From NCBI RefSeq assembly GCF_010993965.1, contig NZ_WIXM01000004.1, positions 124,001 to 188,000 on the forward strand: a DNA stretch of 64,000 bases. Direction: 5' to 3'. Of this stretch, positions 1,698 to 16,522 are shown one piece after another. Numbering within the stretch: the first letter of the stretch is position 1; each line of letters starts with the position of its first letter. Both the position numbers and the translations under genes were made by a program. Source of the DNA: Gracilibacillus sp. YIM 98692 (GTDB lineage: Bacteria > Bacillota > Bacilli > Bacillales > Amphibacillaceae). The notes beneath the pieces are model-generated. The model had not been told where the DNA came from, made no database searches, and was given only the letters and a program-made list of their open reading frames with translations.

Positions 1698-1727
1698 TTG
1701 AAGTTTGACTGTAGGGTTTGCTATACT
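1698..1727 (+). promoter_or_regulatory. Sigma-A-type promoter of leader L1
   Basis: TTGAAG, an 18-nt spacer and TATACT preceded by TGC (extended -10). The -10 ends 32 nt before the conserved leader box, the same distance as in the promoters at 8.6 and 16.35 kb. Confidence 0.6.
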
Positions 1728-1759
1728 AAACGTGTATTCTTTTACTTTTATTTTAGTTA

Positions 1760-1866
1760 GCAACCTTTTATGGTTAGCGGGTGAATAACAAATAATAAAG
1801 CCTTTGGGCTTGGTTTTATGCACCATTTGTGTATGAAAAACCTTGTCCAAAGGCTTTTTTTGTTTT
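1760..1866 (+). ncRNA. Leader L1: conserved AACC/GGTT hairpin, AGCGGG box and terminator
   Basis: The box reads GCAACC, TTTTAT, GGTTAGCGGG. About 14 nt later a long terminator starts with AAAGCCTTTGG and ends CCAAAGGCTTTTTTT. Its inner arm (GGTTTTATGCAC / GTGTATGAAAAACC) also pairs. The same architecture occurs at 8.19, 8.66 and 16.41 kb with different terminator sequence, which indicates selection on the layout. It sits between a promoter and an unknown operon, so transcription of that operon should depend on read-through. Confidence 0.65.
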
Positions 1867-1931
1867 TGGAAAAAGGTGCTGCACAAAGAGAGGTAAAAGA
1901 GTGCAAAATCAACAAACGAAAGGGTGGTAAG

Positions 1932-2477
1932 ATGTACAAACACGAATTTCAATTTACTGTGTTTGTCAATCACAAGGAGAGTCTCATCGAAAGGGGATTA
2001 AAAGGGTTACGCTTTCGTAAAAAAGGGGATTCCTTTACATTAGATATGGATTGTACATATTTTCATGTTGTCCCTTTTCAACATCAACCTCGGTCTTCTT
2101 TAAACGGCTATAGATGTTATTGTAATGGTTCCATCGAAGGGGCAACTTATTTATTAGATACGTCCTTTGGTTGGACCGATCCAGAGGTAACAGGTATTTT
2201 ATGTACGATCAAAGATGATGATAAGACACAAGAGGATTGGATCCATCATTTACAAAATCATGTGCATTGTCATATGGTCGATGCGAGAGGATTGTTCCGT
2301 TATAAAAAAACAATGGTGTCAATTGTTCCGGAGGGAATTTGCTTACATCTACATGCTCCGAAAGGAAAAAAACTAGACACGTTAAAGAGTTTACAAGAGA
2401 TCGATTCAATGCGAGAAAACATTTCGCCATTGAAATACGATCTCTTTTCTTTTTTAGAAGAGGAGGATGCAGTGTGA
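1932..2477 (+). CDS. Unknown 181-residue protein, first gene after leader L1
   Basis: The frame stays open upstream through the terminator, but the first start with a ribosome binding site (AAAGGGTGG) is the ATG at 1932, just after the leader. The protein has many aromatic, histidine and cysteine residues (CTYFHVVPF, CYCNGS, HVHCH), which could bind metal; this is inference. The C-terminal part contains KGKKLDTLKSL and ends with acidic residues. No domain is recognised. Its stop overlaps the GTG start of the next gene (GTGA), so the two were translationally coupled before the IS21 element entered. Confidence 0.7.
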   Translation: MYKHEFQFTVFVNHKESLIERGLKGLRFRKKGDSFTLDMDCTYFHVVPFQHQPRSSLNGYRCYCNGSIEGATYLLDTSFGWTDPEVTGILCTIKDDDKTQEDWIHHLQNHVHCHMVDARGLFRYKKTMVSIVPEGICLHLHAPKGKKLDTLKSLQEIDSMRENISPLKYDLFSFLEEEDAV

Positions 2478-2536
2478 CACAGTTTTTTACGAATCAAGGT
2501 AAATATGAGGTTCAAATAGGTGGTGTAACCGTCAAG
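2474..2536 (+). pseudogene. 5' fragment of an unknown gene split by the IS21 element
   Basis: A GTG start with AGAGGAGG upstream opens a frame of 21 codons (starting with TQFFTNQG) that stops at a TAG in the insertion sequence terminus. The rest of the gene continues beyond the element, where residues such as LAVTGGLYFNG appear in frame. The fragment alone is unlikely to be functional. Confidence 0.65.
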
Positions 2537-2583
2537 TAGAATTAAACAATTTTCCACAAATAATGTCCAACAGTTTTCCCCAA

Positions 2584-3357
2584 TTAAGACTCAACACCTG
2601 AATCTGGAAATAGTACTTGTCTATATTTCATTCTTATACTGTCTTGATTCTCATCAAATGTGATGATTTCACTTCTATGGAGGAGGCGATCTAAGATCGC
2701 CGTTGTTAATGTTGTATCTCCAAGAAACTTTCCCCATTCACTTGGTCCTTTGTTGGAAGTCAAGATAAACGCGGTTTTATCATACATCTCATAAATAAAC
2801 TGAAAGAATAGCTGGGCATCCTGTGTTTCGTAAGCCATATACATGACATCATCAATTATGATTAAATCGGAAGTAGTAATTCGTTTATGTCTTGTTCTTG
2901 ATTTACTAATATATTCTTTTGTTTTTAATACATAAAGTAAACGTTCCATTGATACAAAAGATACTTGATAGCCTTGTTCAACTGCATGTATGCCTAATCC
3001 AGTAGATAGGTGAGTTTTGCCCACCCCAGGTGGGCCCATCATAATTAATGTGAAGTTTTCTTCTACCCAGGATAGTTCTTTTAACACATTTAATTGCTTT
3101 TCTCCAATCGCTGATTGTTCTTCTAAGTGAAATTGATCTAGTGTTAATTGCTGCGGAAACTCTGCCCATTTCATCAACTTAGCGCAGTTCTTCTGTTCAC
3201 GACAAGTCAATTCATATCCTAGTACATGATCAATAAACTCATGGTATGTCCACCCTTTCGACTCTGCCTCTCTAAGCATACTTGGTAGTTCTTTAGCGGT
3301 TTCTGCTAATCTTAACGTTTTGCACTTATCTTGGAGTACTTTGTAGAATTCGGTCAT
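2584..3357 (-). CDS. istB: IS21 transposition ATPase IstB
   Basis: A 257-residue AAA+ ATPase that regulates target choice by the IstA transposase in IS21 elements (known for the family). Walker A GPPGVGKT is at residues 108-115 and Walker B LIIIDD at about 165-170, with a sensor-like ILTSNKG further on. Length is normal for IstB. The start overlaps the end of istA by 4 nt (ATGA), the usual coupled arrangement. Confidence 0.93.
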   Translation of the reverse strand: MTEFYKVLQDKCKTLRLAETAKELPSMLREAESKGWTYHEFIDHVLGYELTCREQKNCAKLMKWAEFPQQLTLDQFHLEEQSAIGEKQLNVLKELSWVEENFTLIMMGPPGVGKTHLSTGLGIHAVEQGYQVSFVSMERLLYVLKTKEYISKSRTRHKRITTSDLIIIDDVMYMAYETQDAQLFFQFIYEMYDKTAFILTSNKGPSEWGKFLGDTTLTTAILDRLLHRSEIITFDENQDSIRMKYRQVLFPDSGVES

Positions 3358-4934
3358 TTCACACTACCTCCTTGAAGTACTTTGAGGTAGATATCTTGAT
3401 TACGTTCAGGTGCTGTTATGTCTTTATACTTCTCATTAATCACTTCTTTCTGTGGTAGTTGTTTGTTCCTTCGTATCTCCAATGAGATTGCAATATCTCT
3501 TAAATCATTAGCACTTGTTAAACCAAGTCTCTTCATTTCCTTAACGGCATCATTTACATACCCTGGATACTTGTCGATGGTTTTTATTACAACCTTGTAT
3601 TGATCAATAACATGCCGAGGATAATGCTCAAGTAGAATCTTAATGAGCCACTCTGAATCTTCTGAGTTAGCTAATAGATTCACTATCTCTTGAGCTAGTG
3701 CGTCTTTTCTTGTTTGGGTTCGTTTTCGATGGTCAGGATCCGTTATAACCGATCCTTTGTCTTTTGATAATTTGTGCTTTGCAATTGGCTTACTATTTGG
3801 ATGAAGAAAAATACTCAAAAATTCATCGGTTACAGATACATAAGCGATATTTTCTTTACCATTTTGAAATGTTCCAAGCGGAACACTATAACGATTCCCT
3901 TCAAAGCGAATTACATTGTCTTTATGAATCTTTCTTGTTATATTTAAAGAGGATACATTTTCAAAAATGTAGTTTGTATTGATCTTTTGAAGGTGCTGCT
4001 TTTCCAGGGCGTGCACCTCGAAAGGTCTTTTCTTTGTATTATGATGGATTTTATAGTTTCCCGTTCTTTTGAGCCAGTTCATACATGAATTCTGCCATGA
4101 CTCTAAAGTTTCAAAAATACGATGTATTGCAAAATTATTTTTAACATACTTTACAACCTGTTCTATTTTCCCTTTTGACTCAGGATCACTTTTCCTGCAT
4201 AAATAAATTTTGAAACCTCTGGTTTCATGATATTTCGTAAACGATTCTGTCAATATTAAGTCTCCAGAATTTTCACTGACTGCTAATAGCCGGTCTTGAT
4301 CATAAACAATTTCTTCAGTCATCCCCCCAAAATACCGAAAGGCATTTTCCTGCATTCTTATCAGGTCATCTGTACGTAGAGGTCTATCTATCCACTCTAC
4401 ATATTTGTATCTTGAATGAGATAAGACAAATCCAGCTAAATATAATTTCTTTTTTTGGCCTGATTTCGTAAATATGTATATCTCTCCAAAATCTACTTGC
4501 ATTTGTTTTCCCATGGGAAGCTCGTTTACAGTACCATAGATTCGCCCCGTGGTTTCTTTAGGAATTTGGTATTTATCTCTTAAGTCATTTACATAGTTTC
4601 TTACTGTGTTCTCAGCTACTGATTTAATCATTAACCTTTCTTGGAGCCAGTCATGTATTTGAGCACTTGTCATGTCTGGATGTTCCTTTAACCAGCTCAG
4701 TATATGATCCTGGTAAGGGTCAAGCTTTTTTGTTCGGTTCTGTAACGAGTGAATAAACTTGTTAAAATCTTCTGGTGTCATATTCAAATATTCAATGACT
4801 CTATTTCTTGAAATCTTCAATTTCCTTGCAATTTTGATGTTTGAAAAACCTTTTCTTTTTAACCGATGTATTTCTTGATAAACCATCCACTTTTCCACTC
4901 CTCGTATCCTCCCTTTCGATACACGATGATTCAA
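3354..4934 (-). CDS. istA: IS21 transposase IstA
   Basis: A 526-residue DDE transposase. An N-terminal helix-turn-helix (KGFSNIKIARKLKISRNRVI, about residues 28-47) precedes an integrase-type core: VDFGE (D148), YDQD (about 211-214) and ESKGKIE (252-258). A C-terminal DNA-binding part resembling Mu/IS21 transposases follows. Full length with no disruptions, so the element may still be active. Transcription runs against the host genes on both sides. Confidence 0.93.
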   Translation of the reverse strand: MNHRVSKGRIRGVEKWMVYQEIHRLKRKGFSNIKIARKLKISRNRVIEYLNMTPEDFNKFIHSLQNRTKKLDPYQDHILSWLKEHPDMTSAQIHDWLQERLMIKSVAENTVRNYVNDLRDKYQIPKETTGRIYGTVNELPMGKQMQVDFGEIYIFTKSGQKKKLYLAGFVLSHSRYKYVEWIDRPLRTDDLIRMQENAFRYFGGMTEEIVYDQDRLLAVSENSGDLILTESFTKYHETRGFKIYLCRKSDPESKGKIEQVVKYVKNNFAIHRIFETLESWQNSCMNWLKRTGNYKIHHNTKKRPFEVHALEKQHLQKINTNYIFENVSSLNITRKIHKDNVIRFEGNRYSVPLGTFQNGKENIAYVSVTDEFLSIFLHPNSKPIAKHKLSKDKGSVITDPDHRKRTQTRKDALAQEIVNLLANSEDSEWLIKILLEHYPRHVIDQYKVVIKTIDKYPGYVNDAVKEMKRLGLTSANDLRDIAISLEIRRNKQLPQKEVINEKYKDITAPERNQDIYLKVLQGGSVK

Positions 4935-5023
4935 GTATATCGAAAGTGGATTTAAATAAGTAAACTGTTTAGTCTTATTTGTAGAAAACTGTTTACTTTT
5001 AATTGTGGAAAACTGTTGAGTCT

Positions 5024-5398
5024 AGTTTAGCAGTTACAGGTGGTTTGTATTTCAATGGCCATTGTATAGCTGAGGGATCTGTATATGTTCAAACGCTATT
5101 GCTTGGATTAACTGGTCATGTTGTCATAGCTGCTAACCATGAAAAAAATGTAGAGATAAAAACAGGTGTGGTAAAAGCGGTATTGCAGGAACATGAAGTA
5201 TATCGAGGAGAAAAGACACCTTTTAAAGAGTTATACCAGGTTCAATGGTTGGATGATGAATATGTCATTCCTGCTGTACATGAAGAACATGCTCACGTCC
5301 TAGCTAAGGTGTTATTTGGTGACCAGCCTTATCATGTTTCGAGATACTGTGATCATAATAAAACCTCTAATCAAAAGGTGACCGCTTATGTTGGATAA
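5024..5398 (+). pseudogene. 3' fragment of the gene split by IS21
   Basis: 124 residues continuing the 21-codon fragment on the other side of the insertion sequence. The frame is open into the IS end, where a TTG at 5003 could start a chimeric protein using IS sequence, but there is no good ribosome binding site. The sequence contains a glycine-rich first part (VTGGLYFNG, LLLGLTGHVVIAA) and a histidine-rich end (HEEHAHV, SRYCDHN). No family is recognised. Its end overlaps the next small gene, which supports an operon that was interrupted. Confidence 0.6.
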
Positions 5399-5534
5399 GA
5401 AAGTATCGAAGGCATATCGTAAGGTTAAAACGGCTGAGAATGAATATAAAGCATTTCAGTTAATAAATCGTATGTCTCCAACATTGGCGAAGAAAGTATT
5501 AATAAAGTATGTCATGCAAGAGAAAAAAGTATAA
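5388..5534 (+). CDS. Small basic protein, 48 residues
   Basis: The ATG lies inside the 3' end of the preceding (split) gene with an 11-nt overlap and AAAAGGTGACC upstream. The product is short, lysine-rich and probably helical (KAYRKVKTAENEYKAFQLI, then SPTLAKKVLIKY). No known family. The tight overlap with its neighbour and the following ribosome binding site make it a likely real operon gene. Confidence 0.5.
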   Translation: MLDKKVSKAYRKVKTAENEYKAFQLINRMSPTLAKKVLIKYVMQEKKV

Positions 5535-5558
5535 AAATATATGAGAGGAATGGAAATA

Positions 5559-6362
5559 ATGAAAACTGCAGCAGAGTTATTCGAACAATATATGGAGGAT
5601 GGTCAGTATCCACGTAAGAAATTCTTGGAGAAACAAAAAGAGGCCGTTCATACTCAAATGAAAAATTGTCTGAAGGATAGTGAAGCGAAACGCATTGCTT
5701 TTGATAAGCAAGGCATGGTGGCAAAGTTTATTAATAAAGGGATTTATCATACACATACACAAGCGTTAAATGAGTATTTATATCAAAAAGGATTGTTACC
5801 TTATATTGTGGAGATTGACAGTAAGAAAGTGAAAAACAATCCTTATTGGGCAGAGGAATTAGAAGACTTCCAACACGAGACATCCTATTTCGTTGCACCG
5901 TATTTTAATAAAAAGGGAAGGGCCTTAATTAATAAGAAAAAAACAGATACTTTTGAAGATGTTGCTGCGAAAGATTTGTTGCTTAAATATTCTCAAACTA
6001 ATGAGGAATTAGAGCGCGTGTTGCATTCTTATGAAATCTTTAAAGAGAAATTAATGAAATGCGCGGAATTAAGAAAAAAAGAAAAGGTCACACATCAATA
6101 TGGATCGCTTAAATTAAGAGCACATGATCCAACCTTTGATAATCATGCTATTTTACATGAGTTGGGAGAAGAAGTTCTAATAGAATATGGTAAACCAAAC
6201 AACAAGAGGATTCAAAAAGTAATGGAGAAAGGATTGTTAACAAAGGCTGAGCTGAATCAATTTAAAACTTTAATGGATCATCGCCTAGACTTTGTCATCA
6301 TGACATTAGAAGCTGAAGCACGAATGTTTGATCACTTGAATGACAGAGCTGGGGAAACTTAA
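5559..6362 (+). CDS. Unknown 267-residue soluble protein
   Basis: Three in-frame ATGs lie close together (5541, 5550, 5559). GAGAGGA is correctly spaced only for the third, so that start is chosen. The protein is highly charged and helical, without signal peptide or membrane segment, and no domain is recognised. It ends at a poly-A stretch followed by a terminator, closing the operon that began after leader L1. Confidence 0.65.
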   Translation: MKTAAELFEQYMEDGQYPRKKFLEKQKEAVHTQMKNCLKDSEAKRIAFDKQGMVAKFINKGIYHTHTQALNEYLYQKGLLPYIVEIDSKKVKNNPYWAEELEDFQHETSYFVAPYFNKKGRALINKKKTDTFEDVAAKDLLLKYSQTNEELERVLHSYEIFKEKLMKCAELRKKEKVTHQYGSLKLRAHDPTFDNHAILHELGEEVLIEYGKPNNKRIQKVMEKGLLTKAELNQFKTLMDHRLDFVIMTLEAEARMFDHLNDRAGET

Positions 6363-6381
6363 AAAAAAAGCCTAAAGAGTC

Positions 6382-6420
6382 AAAGATGGCCAAAGAATTA
6401 TTGGCCATCTTTTATTGTTT
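6382..6420 (+). terminator. Intrinsic terminator
   Basis: GATGGCC and GGCCATC form a 7-bp stem around an 11-nt loop, followed by TTTTATTGTTTTT. It ends the transcription unit containing the 267-residue protein. Confidence 0.75.
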
Positions 6421-6466
6421 TTACCTTAGGAATACAATAGACTGAAATGGGAGGAGAACACATATT

Positions 6467-7654
6467 ATGAAAGAGAATAAAAATTATCATAGTAGACTAT
6501 TAGGCTTGAGTAGAATATTTGATGATGTCATAGAGGAGATAAAAGATAGTTATCGTGATGAAAAGTATTCTAATTGGCTTGTGTATTTATTATGCAGTCC
6601 TTTACTCGAAATTGGTAAAGTTAATAAAAGAAGAAAAGGAATTGAAAAGTTTTTTAATCTTTCCCTAGTACAAGCAGTTTTCCCTATGATTACGGGAACA
6701 TCAGGTGTAGTACTTGCTTACTTTCAAAATATAAACCCGTGGATGTTGTTGGGGTTAGGTTTTTTGTTAGGATACTTTTTTATGTTACCGATCTATTATA
6801 GTCAAATGCTTACATTTAAAAGTGGTCATTTTCATGCAGGTGCATATCGTAAGTTCAGAAGACAAGAATATAACCTTTTTAGATCTGCATTCTTAGATGA
6901 CAAAAGAGATTTTTTCTTCAAAGGTTTATATGATTATGTTGGCGAAATGGCATCCCACAATAGCGATGCTCTACAGATATATGGAATGATTGAAGATAAG
7001 TTGGATCGGCATCTAGAAAGGGAGAAGAAACAACTACAAACAAAAGTGTCTGTATTAAAAGATCGATTAAAAAGAAAAGATAAGGATCACCATAAAGCCA
7101 CAGAGAAGTATGAGAACTTTATAGACAGTTTACTTAATAGAAGACAAGACTTGATAGAAGGTCTTGAATTCATTATTAGTTTGATAAAGGATATCAACAT
7201 TATTCTATATCGTATGCGGAATGGTGTGTTTTCTACAAAAGATCTGAATATATTAAGCGGTTTTACCATTTTTCAGCTTGAAAATAAAAAATTAGTGAAA
7301 ATAGAGGATGTAGGTACAACAGGTTCTACCCCAACCGTATTATCACTAAATTCAAAAAGAAATTGGGGAGCTATTGAAGTGGTAAAGAAAAATCTAGATA
7401 ATCCGGTTGTTAACACACCTTATCTTAACCATACGGTCATTTCTTATAAAATGAAAATGGGCATTGATAGTGGTGGTACTTGGGTATATAATTTTCATTT
7501 CGATTCAGATGATAAGAAGGCCATGCATTTACTGGAAAAAGATGATATAATGGATTCAAGGGAAGTTTATCGTTTAATCCATGCTCTTTGTTTGTTATCA
7601 CAAGGAGAGTTTCAATTTACCAGTAAAAAGGAGGCTCTACGAAATGACCAATAA
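6467..7654 (+). CDS. Membrane protein with two transmembrane helices and a coiled coil
   Basis: 395 residues, ATG preceded by GGGAGGAG. Two membrane segments lie close together at about residues 70-110 (AVFPMITGTSGVVLAYF; MLLGLGFLLGYFFMLPIYY). They are followed by a long charged helical region (about 180-230, HLEREKKQLQTKVSVLKDRL) and a folded C-terminal domain of about 150 residues. Both termini are predicted to be cytoplasmic. No family is recognised. In conjugative plasmids such proteins can belong to the transfer machinery, but nothing here proves that. Its end overlaps the next small gene. Confidence 0.7.
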   Translation: MKENKNYHSRLLGLSRIFDDVIEEIKDSYRDEKYSNWLVYLLCSPLLEIGKVNKRRKGIEKFFNLSLVQAVFPMITGTSGVVLAYFQNINPWMLLGLGFLLGYFFMLPIYYSQMLTFKSGHFHAGAYRKFRRQEYNLFRSAFLDDKRDFFFKGLYDYVGEMASHNSDALQIYGMIEDKLDRHLEREKKQLQTKVSVLKDRLKRKDKDHHKATEKYENFIDSLLNRRQDLIEGLEFIISLIKDINIILYRMRNGVFSTKDLNILSGFTIFQLENKKLVKIEDVGTTGSTPTVLSLNSKRNWGAIEVVKKNLDNPVVNTPYLNHTVISYKMKMGIDSGGTWVYNFHFDSDDKKAMHLLEKDDIMDSREVYRLIHALCLLSQGEFQFTSKKEALRNDQ

Positions 7655-7814: not shown

Positions 7815-7829
7815 GAACTATATAAATGT

Positions 7830-7868: not shown

Positions 7869-7869
7869 G

Positions 7870-8135: not shown

Positions 8136-8320
8136 TATACTTATTGATTAGGAATTTCATTGAAAAGGTATCGATTTTCTTTTTATTTTGTAGGCAACCT
8201 TTTAGGTTAGCGGGAAACTACGTTAGGAAAAAAACCGATCTAAAGATCGCCTTGTATGATTATTACTTAGGTTTAAAAAATCTTTCCGAAGATCGTCTTT
8301 TTTTTTGTTTTTAAAAAGGT
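8136..8320 (+). ncRNA. Leader L2: conserved hairpin/AGCGGG box and terminator
   Basis: The box (8194-8214) reads GCAACCT, TTT, AGGTTAGCGGG. The terminator follows: CGATCT and AAAGAT pair with ATCTTT and AGATCG further on, then a run of nine T. A TATACT at 8136 is a possible -10, but its distance to the box (over 50 nt) differs from the other copies, so the promoter is unsure. The leader precedes a 58-residue protein gene. Confidence 0.6.
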
Positions 8321-8396
8321 TTCTTCTTTTAAAAACATAAAGGGAAGATGGGTGCATTTTGGAAAGGGGGAATGTTATAGAATAGGAGGAAACGGC

Positions 8397-8573
8397 ATGG
8401 TCAAGGTGCTGGATATTCTAATCAACAGTGAAAAAGAAGCCATTTCGGAAATACGAGAATCAATGAATAATACCTGGACCAAAAAAGGTGGAGACCGTTA
8501 CCATCAACAGATTATAAATATTATAGAAGAGGCAAAGGAAAGATATCAGAATAAAAAAGATCATGCTTGGTAG
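8397..8573 (+). CDS. Small acidic helical protein, 58 residues, behind leader L2
   Basis: The ATG is preceded by AATAGGAGGAAACGGC. The product (start MVKVLDILINSEKEAISEI) is probably all helical. No family is recognised. It is the only gene between leaders L2 and L3, so it forms its own attenuated transcription unit. A terminator overlaps its last codons. Confidence 0.6.
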   Translation: MVKVLDILINSEKEAISEIRESMNNTWTKKGGDRYHQQIINIIEEAKERYQNKKDHAW

Positions 8574-8597
8574 ATATACGAGTATGATCTTTTTTTG
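8555..8597 (+). terminator. Intrinsic terminator overlapping the stop of the 58-residue gene
   Basis: AAAGATCATGC pairs with GTATGATCTTT, followed by T residues. The stem includes the last codons of the upstream gene, and the T run leads straight into the next -35 element. Confidence 0.65.
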
Positions 8598-8626
8598 TTG
8601 TATTTTATACTGGGCCATAGTACAAT
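8598..8626 (+). promoter_or_regulatory. Sigma-A-type promoter of leader L3
   Basis: TTGTAT, a 17-nt spacer and TACAAT. The -10 ends 31 nt before the leader box. Confidence 0.65.
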
Positions 8627-8657
8627 AATAGTGTAACTTTTTATTTTAACTTTTTAG

Positions 8658-8772
8658 GCAACCTTTTGAAGGTTAGCGGGATTTCACAAAACGTAAGCGA
8701 TCTTTGGATCGGGATTTATTCACTCTTATTGAAGAGTGAATTTCCTTTCCAGAGATCGCTTTTTTTTGCGTT
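8658..8772 (+). ncRNA. Leader L3: conserved hairpin/AGCGGG box and terminator
   Basis: The box reads GCAACCTT, TTG, AAGGTTAGCGGG. Thirteen nt later AAGCGATCT pairs with AGATCGCTT, enclosing a second perfect arm (TTCACTCTT / AAGAGTGAA), and nine T follow. It stands before the 118-residue protein and ssb genes, so their transcription probably depends on antitermination. Confidence 0.65.
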
Positions 8773-8804
8773 TTGTACACAAAATTTTGGAAAGGAAGAG
8801 GATA

Positions 8805-9161
8805 GTGAGTAACATTACGACATTATTTGGTAAAACAGATGTTGTGGAGGATTGTCGTCCAAGTCTCCATGTGGTAAAGAAAAAGTCGCTTCGCAAAAGT
8901 ATAGGAGTGGAGGTTATTTTACGAAACGGTACTCGTCGTTATTATCGCCCTCGTTCTACCAGTAAGAAGGATATCCAGGTAGAAGTTTTTACGTTTATCA
9001 AGTCCCTTGAAAAAGCGACGAATCAAAATGTGATGTGGCGTTTTAGAGGTGATGAGTTGTTTCATATGGGTACCGAAACATTTGCTGCAGCAGTAGAAAA
9101 ATCATCTCTAAAAGAAAAAGGAAAAAAGATCTTAGACTATTTCTTTGATCTAGAGGATTAA
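8805..9161 (+). CDS. Unknown 118-residue protein upstream of ssb
   Basis: The frame is open through the terminator, but the first start with a ribosome binding site (GGAAAGGAAGAGG) is the GTG at 8805. The protein is basic in its first half (KKKSLRKSIGVEVILRNGTRRYYRP) and acidic at the end; the basic part suggests nucleic-acid binding (inference). No known family. It is followed 37 nt later by ssb and shares its leader. Confidence 0.6.
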   Translation: MSNITTLFGKTDVVEDCRPSLHVVKKKSLRKSIGVEVILRNGTRRYYRPRSTSKKDIQVEVFTFIKSLEKATNQNVMWRFRGDELFHMGTETFAAAVEKSSLKEKGKKILDYFFDLED

Positions 9162-9198
9162 TCATATAAAATACCATTTATAATTGGGAGGAATGGAA

Positions 9199-9666
9199 AT
9201 GTTAAACAGAGTAGTATTGGTGGGGCGTTTAACAAAAGACCCGGACTTACGTTATACACTGAATGGAGTATCCGTAGCGAACTTCACTATTTCATGTAAT
9301 AGACCTTTTTCTAACCAACAAGGACAGCGAGATGCAGACTTTATTAATTGTGTGACCTGGAGAGGACAGGCGGAAAGTCTTGCAAATTACATGGAAAAAG
9401 GAAACATTGTAGGTGTAGATGGACGGTTGCAATCACGTTCATTTGACGGAGATGACGGAAAAAAAGTATTTGTAACAGAGGTTGTAGCTGATTCTATCCA
9501 ATTTCTTGAACCCAGAAATAATGGAAGTAAGAATCAGAATTATTCAAGTGGTCGTTCAGCCGCTTCTCCAAATCAACCGAGTGGACAGAATCAATCTTCA
9601 CATTCCCAATCATGGGAACAAATTGGAGAGCCAATAGATATAGGTGATGATGGATTGCCTTTTTAA
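9199..9666 (+). CDS. ssb: Single-stranded DNA-binding protein
   Basis: 155 residues with the SSB OB-fold start [19 protein letters not shown], the core motif [11 protein letters not shown] and the block [20 protein letters not shown] Gln/Ser/Asn-rich linker leads to the acidic tip DIGDDGLPF, which in SSB proteins recruits repair and replication partners. An in-frame TTG lies upstream, but GGGAGG positions the ATG at 9199. Plasmid SSBs protect the entering strand during conjugation and substitute for host SSB. A terminator follows. Confidence 0.97.
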
Positions 9667-9693
9667 ATGGAATATTCATCACATCTTGTGGTA

Positions 9694-9728
9694 AGGGCAT
9701 TGCGATATATCGTAATGCTCTTTTTTTA
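9694..9728 (+). terminator. Intrinsic terminator after ssb
   Basis: GCATTGCGAT and ATCGTAATGC form a near-perfect stem followed by CTTTTTTT. Confidence 0.8.
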
Positions 9729-9751
9729 TGAAATAAAAAGGAGGATTAACC

Positions 9752-10825
9752 ATGTCTCATATAGGCAACAAGCTTAAAGCAGGATTTTTCAAAACGCCAG
9801 AGAAGCAAGGAGAATACTTAAAACAATTAATAGATGTAAATGGTGATTGTAGTTTTTTTGATCCAACTTGTGGAGAGGGAGCGATTTTACACCAATTAGC
9901 CTCTTATTACCGCAACGAGGAAACGTCGATTACAACATATGGAGTGGAATTGGATAAAGGAAGAGCTGAAAAAGCGGATAGCGTTTTAGATCACGTGGTG
10001 AACGGTCCCATTGAAAGTATGGTCGTGAGTCATAACGTATTTAGTTTTCTATTCCTTAATCCACCTTATGACCATACACAGAAAGGATTGGAAGATGATA
10101 TATCGGATCGTAAGGAATGGTTAGAACTCACACGTAATTTTAAGTATTTAAAGGAAAATGGTGTGATGGTCTATATCATCCCTTCGTACCGATTCGCTGA
10201 TAAAAAAATTCGCCGTTATTTATCAACCAACTTTTATGATGCAGGTATCCTGCGCTTTTCTTCCGAGGATTATGAGGATTTTAAACAATGCATATTCATT
10301 GGTAGAAAAAAAAGCGGCACGGTCAAGAAAGTCAATAAAAAGCTACATCAGTTTTTAGAAAATATGGAAGAGGAAGCTTTTATTGATAAATATGTAAGTC
10401 CTATTGAACAAATCATTGGACATAAAGTGTGGCACGTACCAAGTGGTGCTACGGAGGTTAAGACATTTTATTCCAAGTTAGAAGAGAAATCTAACTTCTA
10501 TAAAGGCATTCGAGAATCTAAGGGCTTTGCTGCATTTAAAGAGCGTTCTAAACCGAAACAATTATCCATTGGTGGTAACCCAGCTTTGCCAATAAATCAA
10601 GGACAAATGGCTTTATTATTAGCGAGCGGTGCCATTAATGGTGAAATGGGACAAGGAGATCACTATCATCTTGTACAAGGGCTAGAGTTAGTGGATAAGG
10701 TGGTAGAAATAGATAAGAACGTTCAGGAGAATGGGAATGTTACAGAAGTGACAAAAGAAAGAACCCAAAGAAGTGTTTCCGTGAAAATTATTACACCAGA
10801 AGGCGTTGTTCGGAAATTAGTATAA
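9752..10825 (+). CDS. DUF6094 SAM-dependent methyltransferase-like protein
   Basis: 357 residues, ATG after AAAAAGGAGG. The SAM-binding motif I is visible as FFDPTCGEGAIL (about residues 36-47) and the catalytic motif IV as FLNPPYD (about 102-108). This is the NPPY type of adenine-N6 DNA methyltransferases. Similar proteins on Firmicute conjugative elements are catalogued as DUF6094. The second half, after about 200 residues, has no recognised domain. It may modify plasmid DNA against host restriction, matching the nearby ArdC gene (inference). Confidence 0.8.
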   Translation: MSHIGNKLKAGFFKTPEKQGEYLKQLIDVNGDCSFFDPTCGEGAILHQLASYYRNEETSITTYGVELDKGRAEKADSVLDHVVNGPIESMVVSHNVFSFLFLNPPYDHTQKGLEDDISDRKEWLELTRNFKYLKENGVMVYIIPSYRFADKKIRRYLSTNFYDAGILRFSSEDYEDFKQCIFIGRKKSGTVKKVNKKLHQFLENMEEEAFIDKYVSPIEQIIGHKVWHVPSGATEVKTFYSKLEEKSNFYKGIRESKGFAAFKERSKPKQLSIGGNPALPINQGQMALLLASGAINGEMGQGDHYHLVQGLELVDKVVEIDKNVQENGNVTEVTKERTQRSVSVKIITPEGVVRKLV

Positions 10826-10881
10826 ATTTCAGCAATAACAAAATTGGGAACTGACACAAAATTTGAGAGGGAGAGAATAAT

Positions 10882-11097
10882 ATGTCCAAACAAACATTAG
10901 AAGAGATATTCAATTTAAAAAAGGATCAGGTGATTGCTCAATTAAAAAAGAAAGGTAAATATATCAATTGTAGTAAGGAATACGGATATATTTATAGCAT
11001 TGATCAGGTCATCAAAGGTAAAAAAATGCTGTTCACCTTGGGTTTAAAAGCAGGCAGAATACTGGTCGTGGATATGAAGTATTCTTATATAGCATAA
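10882..11097 (+). CDS. Unknown 71-residue protein
   Basis: ATG preceded by GAGAGGGAGAG. A small basic protein (KKDQVIAQLKKKGKYI) with alternating hydrophobic segments towards the C-terminus. No family is recognised. It lies between the DUF6094 and LPD1 genes in one orientation. A weak stem (AGAAAG / CTTTCT) with a T run follows the stop. Confidence 0.55.
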   Translation: MSKQTLEEIFNLKKDQVIAQLKKKGKYINCSKEYGYIYSIDQVIKGKKMLFTLGLKAGRILVVDMKYSYIA

Positions 11098-11200
11098 GAG
11101 GGAGAAAGAAAGTGAGTAGATTGCTTTCTTTTTTATTTTGTCTATAGAGAAGAAATGATCATGGCATAAACAAGAGATAACATTAAGGGAGGAACGATAC

Positions 11201-11398
11201 ATGAAAGAAATAGTATATTATCTGAAAAGCATGGAAAAATTTATGGAAGAGGATGCCTACATCCGCTTCGTAGTGAAAGATTTAATGCGTAGAGGGCATA
11301 CACGTGAAAAGGCATTAGAAATCGCCTTTAACACTGTTTTAGATGATCATCTAATGGTGGAACGATACCAAAAAATAAATGACAAAGGAGAGGCATAA
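11201..11398 (+). CDS. Unknown 65-residue protein coupled to the LPD1 gene
   Basis: ATG after AAGGGAGGAACG. Predicted all-helical and acidic (MEEDAYIRFVVKDLMRRGHT). The stop TAA at 11396-11398 is one nucleotide before the ATG of the LPD1 protein, and the ribosome binding site of that gene lies in this one's end. No family is recognised. Confidence 0.6.
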   Translation: MKEIVYYLKSMEKFMEEDAYIRFVVKDLMRRGHTREKALEIAFNTVLDDHLMVERYQKINDKGEA

Positions 11399-11399
11399 T

Positions 11400-13247
11400 A
11401 TGAAGCAAGTCACTTTGTTTGATTTTGAGAAAAAATCGGAGGATATAAGAACGGATAAGCAAAGAAATCGAAGAATTGCTTATGATGTTGGAGAAAAGAT
11501 TCGTGGTTCACGAAAAGAGGAAGCATCCTTGCGAAAAGCTTTTGGAGAAATGCAGAATAACGAGCGCTTGCAACAACTAGAAGACATAAGTCCTCAAGTT
11601 GCTGCAGAAATGGTGACACGTGATTTAATATTTGACAACTTTTCGTTAAAGGAAGAAAAAGAAAAAGGTACAGAACCCGTCGTCGCACGAGTGAAACAGT
11701 TAGTCATTCAGCGTATCGGTAAAGTACCACAAGAGGATTCACCAGAAGGCAGAGCGGCTTATTTACGAGCCGCTCTTTTTTATAAAGAAACCATGGAATC
11801 CGTACTTACGTTTGACGATTTAAAAGATAAAGTGTACGAATTAAGAAAGACCATGAATTATGAGGGATCTAATCTACAGTATGCATACGAACGCATTCAA
11901 CAAGCGGATGCATATCTACGTCAATTAGATGCGAAAGAAAATGATAAGCTCTATGAAAGGTCAAAGCGAGATAAGAAACAATACACGGAGTATATCGCCA
12001 AAGTGCACAAAGCGAATGAACTTCCATTACGTTGTTTAGGAAAGAAATTCTCTAATTTCTTTTTGCAAGCCAAGAGTGCCAATAACACGATAAATAACGT
12101 CATGGATAAGGTTCAATCGTGGGACGATTTATTAACAACGAAAAAGCGGACGCAAAGGAAAAAAACTTCCCGTGTTTGGGAACGAGAGCTACCAGAACGT
12201 CCTAACCGTATAGGTGGTCCAATATCAAAAGTTCGTACACCGGAACAATTACAAGATGCTTTTTCATTGCGTGGTGTGCAATTTGGTCACTGGACCAATG
12301 ATGACATAGGGGCTAATCATTTGTTCCGCTTTTCAGAAGCTTTTTATGATTTAGCGGATATCTTACAAATCAATACCTATACTTCTTTGTCTTTTAACCA
12401 ACGTCTTGGAATCGCTTTTGGTAGTCGGGGGCGTGGCACTGCATTAGCTTCTTATGAGCCACTAGAAAAAGTTATTAATTTTACACGAAATAAAGGTAGT
12501 CTTGGTAATACTGCTCATGAATGGTTTCATGGGTTGGATCATTGGCTATTTGACTTTTCGCATAACTATCAAAACGGTCAACTTGGTTATATCACCAACC
12601 AACAAGGCTGCGGTACGAACTTATCTGTAAAAGTCCGTCATGCAGTAGAACAATTAATGGATATGATCATAAAAGGTGAAGGTATTGAGATGATTACCAA
12701 TAAGAATGAGGATCATACTACCTGGCGTTTATCTTCCAGAATCAAGTCACTTTATCGACGAGAAAATGGTAGTGTCAGAAATGCCCTTCTTTCCTATCGA
12801 TTACAACAGGAGGAGCAGCTAGATCGCCGTATTGATATGATCGATAAAATGTACTCTGCTGTTTCCAAGCAACAGATAGAGAAAATGAAGAAAAAACAAA
12901 TAAGAGAATTAAATAAAATAGCGCAAGCTTTAGCATGGTTACATGAATGCGAAACAGGGGAACGTCTTCAGGAGATACCGATTCCTACCGATAAATCCAA
13001 TTTTTATTTACAAGCTATCAAATTGGATAAAGGGAAAAAGGGGTATTGGAGTCGACCTATCGAATTAGCAGCCCGTGCTTTTGAAGCTTATATTGAAGAT
13101 AAGCTCAAAGAACAAGGTCGGCGAAATGACTACTTGGTGTGTGGCACATATGATAAGAAGGTATTTCCCGTGGGAGAAGAACGAGTAAAGATAAATAACG
13201 CCTTTGATCAATTCATTCGTGTTATTCGAGATACTTTCGCTTTATAA
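11400..13247 (+). CDS. LPD1-domain protein with N-terminal clamp-binding-like motif
   Basis: 615 residues; GACAAAGGAGAGG positions the ATG at 11400. The first residues, MKQVTLFDF, fit the bacterial beta-clamp binding consensus (QxxLF). The middle is long and helical. At residues 350-385 the run IAFGSRGRG, VINFTRNKG and AHEWFHGLD (373-380) matches the LPD1 domain, a putative metallopeptidase-like module of conjugative-element and phage polyvalent proteins; HEWxH would bind zinc. Such proteins are thought to enter recipients or act early after transfer (family knowledge, not proven here). A strong terminator follows. Confidence 0.8.
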   Translation: MKQVTLFDFEKKSEDIRTDKQRNRRIAYDVGEKIRGSRKEEASLRKAFGEMQNNERLQQLEDISPQVAAEMVTRDLIFDNFSLKEEKEKGTEPVVARVKQLVIQRIGKVPQEDSPEGRAAYLRAALFYKETMESVLTFDDLKDKVYELRKTMNYEGSNLQYAYERIQQADAYLRQLDAKENDKLYERSKRDKKQYTEYIAKVHKANELPLRCLGKKFSNFFLQAKSANNTINNVMDKVQSWDDLLTTKKRTQRKKTSRVWERELPERPNRIGGPISKVRTPEQLQDAFSLRGVQFGHWTNDDIGANHLFRFSEAFYDLADILQINTYTSLSFNQRLGIAFGSRGRGTALASYEPLEKVINFTRNKGSLGNTAHEWFHGLDHWLFDFSHNYQNGQLGYITNQQGCGTNLSVKVRHAVEQLMDMIIKGEGIEMITNKNEDHTTWRLSSRIKSLYRRENGSVRNALLSYRLQQEEQLDRRIDMIDKMYSAVSKQQIEKMKKKQIRELNKIAQALAWLHECETGERLQEIPIPTDKSNFYLQAIKLDKGKKGYWSRPIELAARAFEAYIEDKLKEQGRRNDYLVCGTYDKKVFPVGEERVKINNAFDQFIRVIRDTFAL

Positions 13248-13250
13248 TAG

Positions 13251-13287
13251 AATAGGACAAGGAAAGGCTTTTCCTTGTCCTATTTTG
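13251..13287 (+). terminator. Intrinsic terminator after the LPD1 gene
   Basis: AATAGGACAAGGAAA and TTTCCTTGTCCTATT form a perfect 15-bp stem with a tight loop. The symmetry would work on both strands. Confidence 0.85.
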
Positions 13288-13385
13288 TATAAGTATAATG
13301 AACAAATACCAATTCAGTAGATTACATTATGAAAGAGTTAGATGATATAGATGAGTTTTGTTATGTATTTTTTAAAAGTTTGATC

Positions 13386-13432
13386 AAAAAACCTGTATTG
13401 ATATTTTATTAAAAATCAATACAGGTTTTTTC
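13386..13432. terminator. Long bidirectional hairpin
   Basis: AAAAAACCTGTATTGAT and ATCAATACAGGTTTTTT form a 17-bp perfect stem with T runs on both strands. Only a 27-codon ORF (about 13328) precedes it, so it may end a decayed gene. Confidence 0.7.
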
Positions 13433-13920
13433 TTTTTCAGCAATCGGGCCAAATTGTGAAAGAATTGACTTCGAGGTAATGTAAAATATATCAGAATTAG
13501 ATACTATTCCGAAGAGCGTAAATCTTCCATTTTTCTTTTATTACCTCACTCATAATCCAATCGAGCAAAGCCCGAGAACATTCAAGTCATGTCAGATGAA
13601 AAAATAGCAACAAAGCTCGGTATAATGCCGAAAATTCTTCGTCAGAAATATGAGTAAATTCCGCAAAAAGAAGGGTATTCTGATCTCACATCAATGCAAA
13701 ATAGCCAAATTATACCGTTCATCCAGATCTAACGTTCAGACAAGCAGTTGAAACCATTAAAAGAATTTTTTGATCACTATACGTATGATGATGTGGAAGA
13801 GTCTTCTGCAGCTGCAAAAAATCCTGTTAATTTCACCATAAAATCGAACATTTTTTTCCTAGTATTCATGGCCAATGACATAAAGACGAATATTATAGAA
13901 AAGGAGCATGCCAATTAAAC
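13433..13920. other. Decayed region without an intact gene
   Basis: Starts with the TTCAGCAATCG-type segment shared with position 530. Around 13560-13810 several frames carry protein-like stretches separated by stops, for example MSDEKIATKLGIMPKILR, which looks like a helix-turn-helix, then KPLKEFFDHYTYDDVEE. They do not join into one frame. I read this as the remnant of an inactivated gene. Confidence 0.45.
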
Positions 13921-13941
13921 CGAATAATCATAATATAGATA

Positions 13942-14238
13942 TCATTGTGAGTCGTAATTACGTAGAGCATCACGGTAATTATCAGTACTAATAAGCTTAA
14001 ATGTATTGTCATCCTCAATAAATTCTAATACAAGTATTTTCCCTCTTATAGAGGAATTCTTATCTGTATATACAACAGCGATTTTATTCTCTCCTAAATT
14101 TACTACTTTTTCCCCAGTTGTATAATCATTTTGTATTATTGGACGTGTGGAATTCGGAGTAGGACTAGGTTTAAAAGCAATAATAAGTAGTGATAACAAA
14201 ATACCTGCTAGAATTATTTTTGTGAATTTATCATTCAT
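13942..14238 (-). CDS. Small membrane-anchored or secreted protein, 98 residues
   Basis: The N-terminus (KIILAGILLSLLIIAF) is a membrane anchor or signal peptide without a clear cleavage motif, followed by about 70 extracellular residues (VVNLGENKIAVVYTDK). AAAAGGAGAGTG-like sequence precedes the ATG on the minus strand. No family is recognised. It is divergent from the secreted 288-residue protein, with AT-rich promoter sequence between them. Confidence 0.6.
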   Translation of the reverse strand: MNDKFTKIILAGILLSLLIIAFKPSPTPNSTRPIIQNDYTTGEKVVNLGENKIAVVYTDKNSSIRGKILVLEFIEDDNTFKLISTDNYRDALRNYDSQ

Positions 14239-14389
14239 TAAAACACTCTCCTTTTTATTTAACTTATATAAATAGTACAGTTACAAATTAAAAAAATAAA
14301 TAGGTAATCTTCATTTTTTTATAAATTTATACAAAAATTACAAAAAATGTGATATTATGGAATAAATATACAAGATAGGGGTAGATTAA

Positions 14390-15256
14390 ATGGAAAAAGT
14401 AAAAAAGTTATCAGGCAAGTTAGTTTTAGGTAGTGTCTTTTTCTTAGTGTCTCTTTTTTTTATAACATCTGTTAACGCTGACTCTCTTCAATCTGACGTA
14501 GCCTTAAATATTGAGCGGGCAGATGAAAGACAGATAGACAGTTACTTAATTCGAAATGGATTAACTAGAGAAGAAGTTTCAAAGCTTGATATTGAAACTA
14601 AAAAACTAACAATAGAAGATTTCAAGGATATTTTAGCGGAAAATCCTCAAGAAAAATTAATATTTAGAGAAGAAGAAAAGAAAAAGTATTTTAAAAATAG
14701 TAATGGTCAATTAGAAGAAATAACGGAAGTAGATGATTCACATTTTTATTTACAAAGTACAATTCCAGAAGAAGATTTAGCGTTATGGTTTGGCTCTATT
14801 GGAACTAGCCATTCAGATATCTATAGAATTTATGCAAACTTTGAATGGAAAAAGGCAGAGACAGCGCCAAGAGAGTTTATAGGTTTTGCAAAAGAAACAG
14901 ACCTAGATATTGCACCTGATTCTTATGAAGCTCGTATTCAATATAAAACTTCATCGGGTTCATCTTGGTATTATTATGGAGATGCTGGAGGAAGACCATA
15001 CGAAATTGATAGCAATAATGGAGCCACGTGGAATTGGAGTGGACCAGCTTATTACTATAAAGGGTTTGTAAGTTATCGAATTGTAAAAGACTCATCTGAT
15101 ACAAGCGCTATATTTGAGATGGAATATGCATCAGATTATAATTCTACTACTACTAGTGTATCTGCGAATCTTGGTCCAATTACAGTTAACCACAAATTAT
15201 CAGATGGGTCTAGTATGCTCAAAGCCCCTCACAGACAAACGGTATATTTTAATTAA
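14390..15256 (+). CDS. Secreted protein of unknown function, 288 residues
   Basis: A classic signal peptide: basic start, a hydrophobic core (LVLGSVFFLVSLFFITS) and a cut site near VNADS. A charged helical segment follows, then a C-terminal domain rich in Tyr, Ser and Trp (about 110-288; SGSSWYYYGDAGG, NNGATWNWSG) that looks beta-rich. No catalytic motif is seen. The ATG has weak TAGGGG upstream. It ends at a strong terminator and is isolated from the surrounding transfer genes, so it is likely cargo. Confidence 0.65.
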   Translation: MEKVKKLSGKLVLGSVFFLVSLFFITSVNADSLQSDVALNIERADERQIDSYLIRNGLTREEVSKLDIETKKLTIEDFKDILAENPQEKLIFREEEKKKYFKNSNGQLEEITEVDDSHFYLQSTIPEEDLALWFGSIGTSHSDIYRIYANFEWKKAETAPREFIGFAKETDLDIAPDSYEARIQYKTSSGSSWYYYGDAGGRPYEIDSNNGATWNWSGPAYYYKGFVSYRIVKDSSDTSAIFEMEYASDYNSTTTSVSANLGPITVNHKLSDGSSMLKAPHRQTVYFN

Positions 15257-15263
15257 AACTTTT

Positions 15264-15295
15264 AAGGTTCTTCACAAATGAAGAACCTTTTTCTA
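15264..15295 (+). terminator. Intrinsic terminator
   Basis: AAGGTTCTTC and GAAGAACCTT, 6-nt loop, then TTTTT. Confidence 0.85.
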
Positions 15296-15405
15296 GATTC
15301 TTGTGAAATTCTGTCTTAACTGAGCAGGATAAAGTTATTATTTGTTTATCTTATAGTACTCAAAAATGAATACTTGTGATGGGATAAGAATAGAGAAAGA
15401 GAAAA

Positions 15406-15582
15406 ATAGCACCTATTTTTGTAAGAACAATCATTATTAAAGATGAAGAAAGATTAACCGATGTTGCGAAGATGCTTTATACAAACGCTTGGAGAGTAAC
15501 AAGAAAAAAATCACGTTATTCTAATCAAAACACATCAAATAACGATAACCGTAGGAAAAATGTAAGGCTAGTAAAACTTTAA
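15406..15582 (+). pseudogene. Remnant of an unknown small basic protein
   Basis: 58 codons open after a TAG, with no standard start codon. The translation (APIFVRTIIIKDEERLTDVA, then a Lys/Arg/Asn-rich tail) reads like a real protein, so this is probably the 3' end of a gene whose start was lost. No family is recognised. Confidence 0.35.
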
Positions 15583-15799
15583 TCATGTTTCAATTAAAGT
15601 GGTCCAGAATTATTCATACTTCCTAGCTGATTCATGTTCGAAGCCATAATCAAACATTTTCTTGGTCGCTAGGCAAACATTCTCGTGATTTCGCTACTTA
15701 AGTCGTGATTTTAAAACAAATCTCTTAAATAAATGGTTTTTTGGGCAGACTCCCCCCTTGTTCTGACATTGAAATTTTTTTAATAGGTATTTGGCTCGT

Positions 15800-16235
15800 T
15801 CACACTAGCTTTAGCTTCTGAATTCGCTGAATTACTTTCCAAAAGAATTCCTGGTACACGAAACTTGAAGCTAGTTTGAAGTACAGGGATCGTCCTGATT
15901 TCACTAATTTACTGGCAACTTTAATAATTCGTGTACGTATGGTGTCGATTTGCATGGTCTTTTGTTCTTCTGGAAAACAAAGTGTACGCAACCAGTTCGT
16001 TAAGTTATAAGCCAAGATACTAAACATCATCTTTACTTCGTTTACTTGGTAGGAATGACTATTCATTTTATCAAAACCGAACCCATTTTTGGCTTCCTTG
16101 ATATAGTTCTCCATCGTTCCTCTTTTTTGGTAAGTAGAGATAATCACTTTAGGAGAAAGTGCATCTACTAAGTTGGTCACAAAGAAAGAATGGGTAAACA
16201 GTAATTCGCCAGCAGGGCGTATCGATTTTATCTTT
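15800..16235 (-). pseudogene. C-terminal remnant of an IS1380-type transposase
   Basis: About 145 residues open from near 16235, without a start. GTMENYIKEAKNGFGFDKM and MFSILAYNLTNWLRTLCFP are typical of the C-terminal part of IS1380-family DDE transposases, including the acidic residue in the ENYIKE block. The N-terminal two thirds are missing. The element entered between the LPD1 and ardC genes and was then largely lost, so no IS ends are evident. Confidence 0.75.
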
Positions 16236-16344
16236 TTTCATTTTTTAAGTGAATGCCCACTTTACAAAGTAGCTTGTTAGATAGACATTTAGTAGACAAT
16301 TAGTGATTTTTCGTGAATAATTCAGGGTGGTTTTTATTTTTTTC

Positions 16345-16373
16345 TTGTAGAATTCCGCAATAACCTATATAAT
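16345..16373 (+). promoter_or_regulatory. Sigma-A promoter of leader L4 (ardC)
   Basis: TTGTAG, a 17-nt spacer and a perfect TATAAT. The -35 and spacer are identical to an inverted 19-bp copy at 1215-1233. The -10 ends 32 nt before the leader box. Confidence 0.75.
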
Positions 16374-16405
16374 AGAACTATACATGTTTACGTTTAATTT
16401 TTGAA

Positions 16406-16522
16406 GCAACCTATATATAGGTTAGCGGGTGAATTACGATATAACACAGCCTTTGGGTTGACGTCACTTTTTCTACAGCAGTAGGAGAAGTACATCAAAC
16501 TCAAAGGCTTTTTTGCGTTTTA
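16406..16522 (+). ncRNA. Leader L4: conserved hairpin/AGCGGG box and terminator before ardC
   Basis: The box reads GCAACCTATA, TATAGGTTAGCGGG, with the longest variant of the AACC/GGTT stem. After 15 nt a terminator starts AGCCTTTGGGTT and ends AAACTCAAAGGCTTTTTT, with an inner hairpin CTTTTTCTAC / GTAGGAGAAG. The outer sequence AGCCTTTG / CAAAGGCT matches L1, whereas L2 and L3 use CGATCT / AGATCG. The leader controls ardC and probably the helicase gene behind it. Confidence 0.65.

Follow-up and report, generated by a model that had tools for sequence, protein, structure and literature searches.

The put RNA of HK022 and the EAR element are RNAs near the start of a transcript that make RNA polymerase resistant to terminators, and ANTAR sites are known to need two hexaloops with fixed residues. 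A stretch of 64,000 nucleotides from Gracilibacillus sp. YIM 98692 (contig NZ_WIXM01000004.1, positions 124,001 to 188,000; hereafter the window) carries four leaders that can be set beside put and EAR as 5′-proximal RNAs, by description and not by sequence. Each of them consists of a bulged hairpin (P1), a small second hairpin (P2) and a long intrinsic terminator that shares one strand with P2. From their sequences and those of their relatives, we lean towards reading them as processive antitermination leaders of a plasmid-wide regulon, in which transcription units would be opened together, and not only at their first terminator.

In regard to the systems already described, the LoaP/dfn system of Bacillus velezensis acts by antitermination of long operons carrying further terminators, and there too a small leader hairpin is followed by an intrinsic terminator (PMC12691694). 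The LoaP hairpin is of the UNCG type, whereas here the P1 loop is variable and P2 mostly carries UUUG and overlaps the terminator; the UUCG form of the P2 loop was seen only in a Virgibacillus relative. LoaP is also a NusG paralogue. Such a paralogue was excluded as the factor acting on the leaders, as the genome (assembly 98.77% complete) has one match to PF02357, on contig C15 and not on the plasmid-like contig C34 that carries the leaders. The conAn system of pLS20 shares with the leaders a conjugation operon with many terminators, an RNA element near the promoter and its presence on Gram-positive plasmids, as far as its published description goes (PMC8955417), but here 5–9 leaders are dispersed over each plasmid. 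A covariance model of P1–P2 (R1), used as the query in a one-way search, gave 0 matches at E ≤ 1 in both parts of pLS20. In plasmids of the same family, EGeRS1 is a repeated regulatory sequence before several establishment operons, including that of ardC; it is described as a GC-rich sequence of 400–600 bp with no strong sigma-A promoter before ardC (PMC8708921), whereas the leaders measure about 110 nt and have promoter-like sites. Finally, the dual-hairpin leaders of EutV and other ANTAR proteins resemble ours in a hairpin exclusive with the terminator (PMC3369936, PMC3369931); unlike in ANTAR sites, the loop of P1 differs in length and sequence between copies, and P2 is mostly a tetraloop. 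In the open-access literature on plasmid antitermination, attenuation, leader RNAs and single-strand promoters, as far as its accessible text extends, no description of these leaders was found, and we take them for a new form of antitermination leader.

The architecture is shared across the family, with a promoter-like −10 in nearly every copy, a U-rich tract, P1, P2 and the long terminator following each other. Among the 91 distinct copies, the 20 nt 5′ of P1 are on average 70% T. P1 has the form GC-AACC-loop-GGTT-A-GC with at least six pairs, a loop of variable length and sequence, and a single-nucleotide bulge in the 3′ arm, which is an A in 81 of the 88 copies parsed; GG(G) follows it. After a spacing of 12–28 nt (13–18 nt in 65 of 79 leaders) comes P2, mostly of 4–6 pairs, closed as C-UUUG-G in 57 of the 91 distinct copies and with mostly UCUG, UAUG or longer loops in the others. 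The 5′ strand of P2, X, has one complement directly after it (X′) and another beside the U-tract (X″). Pairing of X with X′ gives P2 and pairing with X″ gives the terminator, and because the 5′ strand of P2 is the 5′ arm of the terminator, the two structures are mutually exclusive. A TATAAT-like hexamer with at most one mismatch lies 17–44 nt 5′ of P1 in 89 of 91 leaders, a search that spans many positions in AT-rich DNA, where such hexamers are often found by chance; the clustering of 63 of the 89 at 30–36 nt is stronger evidence for a promoter than their presence. In none of the 79 leaders is a Shine-Dalgarno-like site with a start codon, as expected of a leader peptide, found before P2.

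In the window, GCAACC-loop-GGTTAGCGGG occurs on the plus strand at 1760, 8194, 8658 and 16406, where a sequence-only reading of this DNA had placed it, the hairpin arms are complementary in all four copies as that reading said, and the −10 of the copies at 1760, 8658 and 16406 does end 32, 31 and 32 nt upstream of the box. Overlooked at that stage were the bulged A between GGTT and GC, by which GC/GC closes P1, the second hairpin overlapping the 5′ arm of the terminator, and a second strong terminator ahead of ardC in copy 4. Leader 1 comprises a promoter-like site TTGAAG-18 nt-TATACT (1698..1727), P1 (GC-AACC..GGTT-A-GC) with its GGG tail (1760..1781), P2 of the form AAGCC-UUUG-GGCUU, whose 5′ strand doubles as the 5′ arm of the terminator (1798..1811), and the intrinsic terminator (1797..1861). 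For leader 3 the corresponding parts are TTGTAT-17 nt-TACAAT as read from the sequence (8598..8626), P1 and GGG (8658..8680), P2 as CGAUC-UUUG-GAUCG (8698..8711) and a terminator with an outer stem of 8 contiguous pairs beyond the U-tract (8696..8767), and for leader 4 TTGTAG-17 nt-TATAAT, likewise read from the sequence (16345..16373), P1 and GGG (16406..16429), and P2 (16447–16460) with its terminator (16447..16514). Leader 2, with P1 and GGG at 8194..8214 and P2 (8236–8249) and terminator at 8236..8306, has no good −10 (the best is TTTCAT) and a weaker terminator than the other copies, and is perhaps a decayed or minor copy. All these features lie on the plus strand. Taken alone, the GGTTAGCGGG box is moderately rare only: 0.86 occurrences with at most one mismatch are expected per window against the 4 exact copies observed, and 1 of 100 window shuffles also gave 4, mismatches allowed. 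Much rarer is the full hairpin-plus-box pattern. It occurs 8 times in the 4.37-Mb genome and each time on C34 (211,206 bp), in five cases on one strand and in three on the opposite one; the reversed control pattern gave 0 matches in the whole genome.

Both hairpins covary. In the first 15 leaders P1 was invariant and P2 had 19 cells with changes on both sides, compared with 7.5 in whole-structure shuffles, and in the wider alignment P1 also varies and covaries (AACC/GGTT, AATC/GATT, GACC/GGTC, AGCC/GGCT, AACT/AGTT). Across 95 distinct rows, in an alignment that is biased towards the structure by having been fitted to the model and that includes a few chance rows, P1 and P2 together hold 176 cells changed on both sides, where 39.3 are expected and none of 500 shuffles reaches that number, and the covariation score is 0.441 against 0.200, with slid controls far lower. 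A pairing count independent of the model alignment was made on 79 placed leaders; the parser did not place the other 12 of the 91, most of which show visible hairpins, and they stand outside the pairing and folding counts. It gave 300 of 316 pairs for P2 (shuffled mean 200, maximum 224), 299 of 316 for the terminator X:X″ (mean 201, maximum 225) and 315 of 316 for P1 (mean 279, maximum 287), none of 2000 shuffles reaching the observed values, which are somewhat inflated because a row had to show 3 or more contiguous pairs in P2 and 6 or more pairs in the terminator to be selected. In both tests, related sequences are not independent of each other. It could be proposed instead that P1 serves as an operator in the DNA, at about +25, with terminators that act simply as insulators, and the conserved GGTTAGCGGG core would fit an operator. 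However, the P1 loop varies in length, its arms covary, and in Planococcus the sequence is replaced and the bulged hairpin kept, which makes this explanation very improbable.

Minimum-energy folding of the truncated RNA yields P1 in 73 and P2 in 72 of the 79 leaders, and folding of the complete RNA yields the terminator in 77 of the 79; to force P2 takes a median of 16.1 kcal/mol. Among the window leaders, P1 and P2 make up the optimal fold once P2 has been transcribed; in leader 1 a different hairpin is optimal ten nucleotides later, after which P2 returns. The complete terminator then wins by approximately 13–16 kcal/mol, or by 4 in leader 2. Since the folding energies favour the complete terminator, termination is predicted as the default, and P2 would persist only with help. 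Such help could come from one-step attenuation, in which a P1-binding protein stabilises P2, in the manner of BglG/LicT or ANTAR proteins, or destabilises it, with control limited to the leader terminator. Two mutually exclusive and strongly covarying structures, of which P2 forms first in most truncated RNAs, are in line with such a switch, and it has to be weighed against what lies further downstream.

All-against-all BLASTP was run on ten plasmids or plasmid parts, among them those of Priestia koreensis FS-1, Rossellomorea marisflavi (p25), Halobacillus litoralis, Terribacillus sp. DMT04, Sutcliffiella horikoshii, Terrihalobacillus insolitus and Fictibacillus phosphorivorans. Of the 94 listed matches to the leader model, 73 mapped to these plasmids, and the terminator analysis drew on 70 of them that were distinct and scored at least 19 bits. 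A strong sense terminator was found within 70 nt 5′ of 41 of the 284 internal gene starts in leader-controlled operons, against 9 of 349 in other same-strand runs, so the many terminators within the controlled operon that characterise conAn are found here as well. The excess points the same way in all ten plasmids, and when only gaps of at least 60 nt are considered, it amounts to 36 of 148 against 9 of 127 (odds ratio 4.2); the Fisher p-values of 2.8e-8 and 1.3e-4 are too small, because the plasmids are related. First genes show 8 of 65 (leader-controlled) against 10 of 132 (other), and an antisense control, with terminators counted within 120 nt, gave 9 of 284 in leader units and 3 of 349 elsewhere. 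Before dnaN the terminator is present in 7 of the 10 plasmids, and also in Planococcus with a different sequence. In the window, a strong terminator lies between ssb and the methyltransferase gene (9693..9727, plus strand), and as its T-tract ends 24 nt before the ATG, there is too little room for a promoter in between. Another terminator-like hairpin with a T-tract lies inside the open reading frame (ORF) 11379–13247 for an LPD1 domain protein (11751..11782, plus strand). Behind leader 4 there is a second, unrelated strong terminator of −21.3 kcal/mol (16549..16595, plus strand), whose T-tract starts 40 nt before the start of ardC, and the plasmids designated FICT, G208 and PKOR also carry a terminator before the corresponding first gene. 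With one-step attenuation, these second terminators and those at the 41 internal starts would still stop transcription; a switch opening only the first terminator would not suffice. One-step attenuation is in our view unlikely, and processive antitermination fits better, because strong terminators precede internal gene starts.

According to the mechanism we propose, a plasmid-encoded factor, possibly together with host Nus proteins, would recognise P1, as a plasmid-specific address, plus P2 on the nascent RNA, and by holding P2 would prevent the first terminator from forming. The factor would then stay on RNA polymerase, and the polymerase would pass the further terminators that stand before many of the operon genes. 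Without the factor, or with a polymerase that started elsewhere, transcription would stop in the leader or at the next internal terminator.

Several observations weigh against processive antitermination. Sense terminators are denser in three leader operons (1.45, 2.67 and 5.08 per 10 kb) than in a leader-free one (0.88), but antisense terminators are also sparser in the latter (0.29 against 0.69, 1.73 and 1.02), and the sense-to-antisense ratios of 19:9, 17:11 and 15:3 compare with 12:4 in the leader-free operon, so that density alone is not decisive. Counted on the annotated genes of one Planococcus plasmid, the excess is weak (4 of 43 against 0 of 17), and the test of internal terminators as a whole rests on an energy rule of our own definition, on homology-filtered ORFs and on related plasmids. 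Internal terminators could also be partial stops that lower the expression of distal genes, or could be masked by ribosomes. No convincing R1 match was found in plasmids of Lactobacillus, Lysinibacillus and Paenibacillus (one each) with a more distant type IV secretion system (T4SS) or VirB4. Finally, the trans factor was not found, either by the search for a NusG paralogue or by a Pfam search of 46 proteins, some of which are mutual orthologues.

The leaders of Planococcus nevertheless argue indirectly for a factor that reads P1, as the sequence-only reading had supposed when it assigned recognition of the box to a factor or ligand. On the Planococcus lenghuensis plasmid, five exact copies of GAGCGTAATGTGCTCNGACGG replace P1 ahead of the same type of P2 (CUCUGG) and terminator; the two copies checked stand before the DUF4258 and Rad52 genes. 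Planococcus sp. MB-3u-03 has five leaders, before DUF4258, Rad52, DUF6018, ArdC-like and leader-1-type genes, with P1 of the form GUC-GAGCG..CGCUC-C-GAC-GG or GUC-GAACG..CGUUC-C/U-GAC-GG, in which the letters differ from the canonical ones, the bulge position and the GG are kept, and the arms covary. R1 itself found none at E ≤ 0.1 in the two Planococcus plasmids. A P1 that is uniform per plasmid and swapped between lineages, with the rest of the leader kept, suggests a cognate trans-acting factor. It is also a possibility that the change reflects a change of host polymerase, as it coincides with a change of host family (Planococcaceae), and this would suit antitermination by RNA alone, in which P1–P2 would bind the host polymerase directly, as put of HK022 does, would insulate the operons from stray transcription and would always be on. 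This would agree with the closeness of the two hairpins to each other and to the 5′ end, with the internal terminators in leader operons and with an empty search for the factor. On the other hand, it leaves the overlap of P2 with the first terminator unexplained, and the P1 core is kept across many host genera; we regard it as improbable.

As for candidates, the only family named RNA-binding among the 46 proteins is that of an S1-domain protein related to ribosomal protein S1 (C34:90354-91247, or L252:10354-11247), encoded in all ten plasmids in the leader-free operon near the VirD4-type gene. More distant versions of it exist in Paenibacillus and Lysinibacillus plasmids without convincing leaders, and the protein is a candidate only. 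All ten plasmids encode a small Xre-type helix-turn-helix (HTH) protein between two divergent leaders; BLAST found no match to it in Planococcus sp. MB-3u-03, where P1 is different. Several other proteins share this profile of presence and absence, and the Virgibacillus plasmid has an annotated HTH gene at the same place, yet no recognisable canonical P1. The Xre-HTH gene (C34:64489-65000, or L251:4489-5000) and its orthologues have an attenuator-like element of a different kind, AGCG-ANNAC-CGCU, which overlaps the 5′ arm of a terminator. A strict pattern recovers it in five of the ten plasmids, each time at that place only, and the others were recognised by eye, including an AGCA..UGCU form in three plasmids; this element may be the regulator's own control. 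We would only tentatively, at somewhat under even weight, extend the proposal of processive antitermination to a new regulon over much of the backbone, with 5–9 leaders, a lineage-specific address, a plasmid RNA-binding factor of a new type, and the polymerase of each lineage reading its own operons.

The regulon is also outlined by where the leaders stand. Each of the ten plasmids has 5–9 of them at orthologous places, although not every plasmid has every place. Recurrent places are before DUF4258–DUF3854 and the T4SS genes (PrgI, VirB4-type DUF87), before Rad52–dnaN together with genes for E2-like, JAB-like (below the Pfam cut-off) and ThiF proteins, before the three-gene operon of window leader 1, before DUF6018–ssb–DUF6094, before ardC-like and helicase genes, and before the gene preceding a very large one. 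Ahead of the operon encoding the replication-relaxation protein, the VirD4-type protein, the S1-domain protein and an ATPase of the type II secretion/type IV pilus type, no R1 leader was found in the ten-plasmid comparison. As the VirD4-type operon lacks a leader, the regulon covers much, not all, of the backbone, and the earlier statement that the whole backbone is switched together was too wide. Its core, an attenuation or antitermination regulon specific to this plasmid type, is supported by the covariation beyond chance, the orthologous placement and the many relatives. Two outcomes that the sequence-only reading had named as refuting it, an absence of further copies and an absence of covariation, were not observed. 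The same reading had offered a single-strand-active promoter, or a structure in single-stranded DNA used on entry into the recipient, as an alternative. Inverted repeats with ssb and ardC downstream would be consistent with this, as would a weak but real signal of an outer stem beyond the U-tract, which exceeds chance slightly (4.44 against 4.00, the largest of 300 shuffles being 4.25). However, leaders occupy both strands in nine of the ten plasmids, in contrast to the single strand expected of Frpo-type promoters, the −10-like hexamers cluster 30–36 nt before P1, and the element is part of the transcript, with a terminator at its end. The alternative is not supported and hardly deserves credence.

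Relatives of the leaders were sought with R1 in further genomes. R1, whose E-values are rough and which was scored on 14 candidates per genome, matched in 34 of 397 genomes of the order at E ≤ 0.01. In fifteen of these a single contig carries at least two separate matches, and at most eight; genome G263, with two overlapping matches on opposite strands, was left out of the fifteen. Among 398 genomes sampled from the class, the order included, five had a match at E ≤ 0.001, all within the order, and one of these (G031) was rejected as a chance match. On 90 fetched stretches R1 gave 96 matches at E ≤ 0.5, which became the 91 distinct copies, on 16 plasmid-like contigs, after removal of two antisense partials, one identical copy and two below 19 bits, of which L351:9048 looks genuine and L253:16646 a chance match. 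Among isolated weak matches of R1 around E 1e-3, some are due to chance; L286 lacks the leader architecture, and L284, by eye, presumably resembles RNase P RNA. Scans with a wide-gap pattern gave, among the matches listed, many that look like chance in unrelated genomes, and L058 and L093 were recognised as members. In a tighter viral scan there were 3 hits, with no ORF matching two or more of the ten plasmids. Two single leaders were found in other surroundings: one (L377:14400-14790, minus strand) on a contig of 18,297 bp, on which only two ORFs match the ten plasmids, neither of them backbone, and the other (L374:15176) with a ‘large protein’ operon inside a contig of 735 kb, perhaps left in a chromosome by such a plasmid.

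A search of PLSDB with the VirB4 of this plasmid gave 63 plasmids at E ≤ 1e-20, 15 of them at 60% identity or more, and by genus these relatives belong to Bacillaceae or Planococcaceae. Eleven of the 15 were examined, comprising eight with canonical leaders, two with the Planococcus variant and one from Virgibacillus, and the four outside this set are Cytobacillus plasmids. Cytobacillus pBO1 has 7 R1 matches at E ≤ 0.1, and two Niallia plasmids have 4 and 5 R1 leaders. On the Virgibacillus plasmid, P2 and the terminator are visible by eye at the two places inspected, without a canonical P1; a guessed P1 was rejected, as its one match in that plasmid was its own source site. No Rfam family matches the leaders, although membership in a named one had earlier been thought conceivable: the whole window gives two group II intron matches only, and a permissive search of 8150–8800 gave at best 24.5 bits against a gathering threshold of 72.

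The genes behind the window leaders are all on the plus strand. Leader 1 precedes a gene for a protein of 181 aa with no Pfam family above the cut-off (1932..2477), the first of operon C, which is interrupted by an IS21-type pair on the minus strand (2584–4934; IstB of 257 aa and an integrase-core protein of 526 aa). Leader 2 precedes an ORF of 58 aa without a Pfam family (8397..8573). Behind leader 3 lies the ssb operon (operon D), which opens with the gene for a DUF6018 protein (8805..9161) and includes those for the single-strand DNA-binding protein (9184..9666) and a DUF6094 methyltransferase-like protein (9752..10825). Operon E, behind leader 4, begins with the ArdC-like antirestriction gene (16628..17479). 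Further on, a group II intron (18526–21253, reverse transcriptase 19196–21094) lies between ORFs 17583–18503 and 21156–23678, both of which seem to be portions of this operon's helicase-like gene. Elsewhere on the backbone, the Rad52–dnaN operon (L305:8398-11806 and orthologues) encodes E2-like and ThiF-type proteins and one with a weak JAB match, a set resembling that of ubiquitin conjugation.

The plasmid antitermination systems found in the literature surveyed act on a transfer operon or on single gene clusters. In the present plasmids, a single small RNA architecture appears to control operons for transfer, replication and repair, single-strand DNA binding and antirestriction together, which would bear on how such plasmids silence costly genes and then switch the set on. 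The leaders also offer direct access to a new RNA-binding antiterminator that may be sought with them, and an address that changes with the lineage could limit cross-talk between plasmids sharing a cell.

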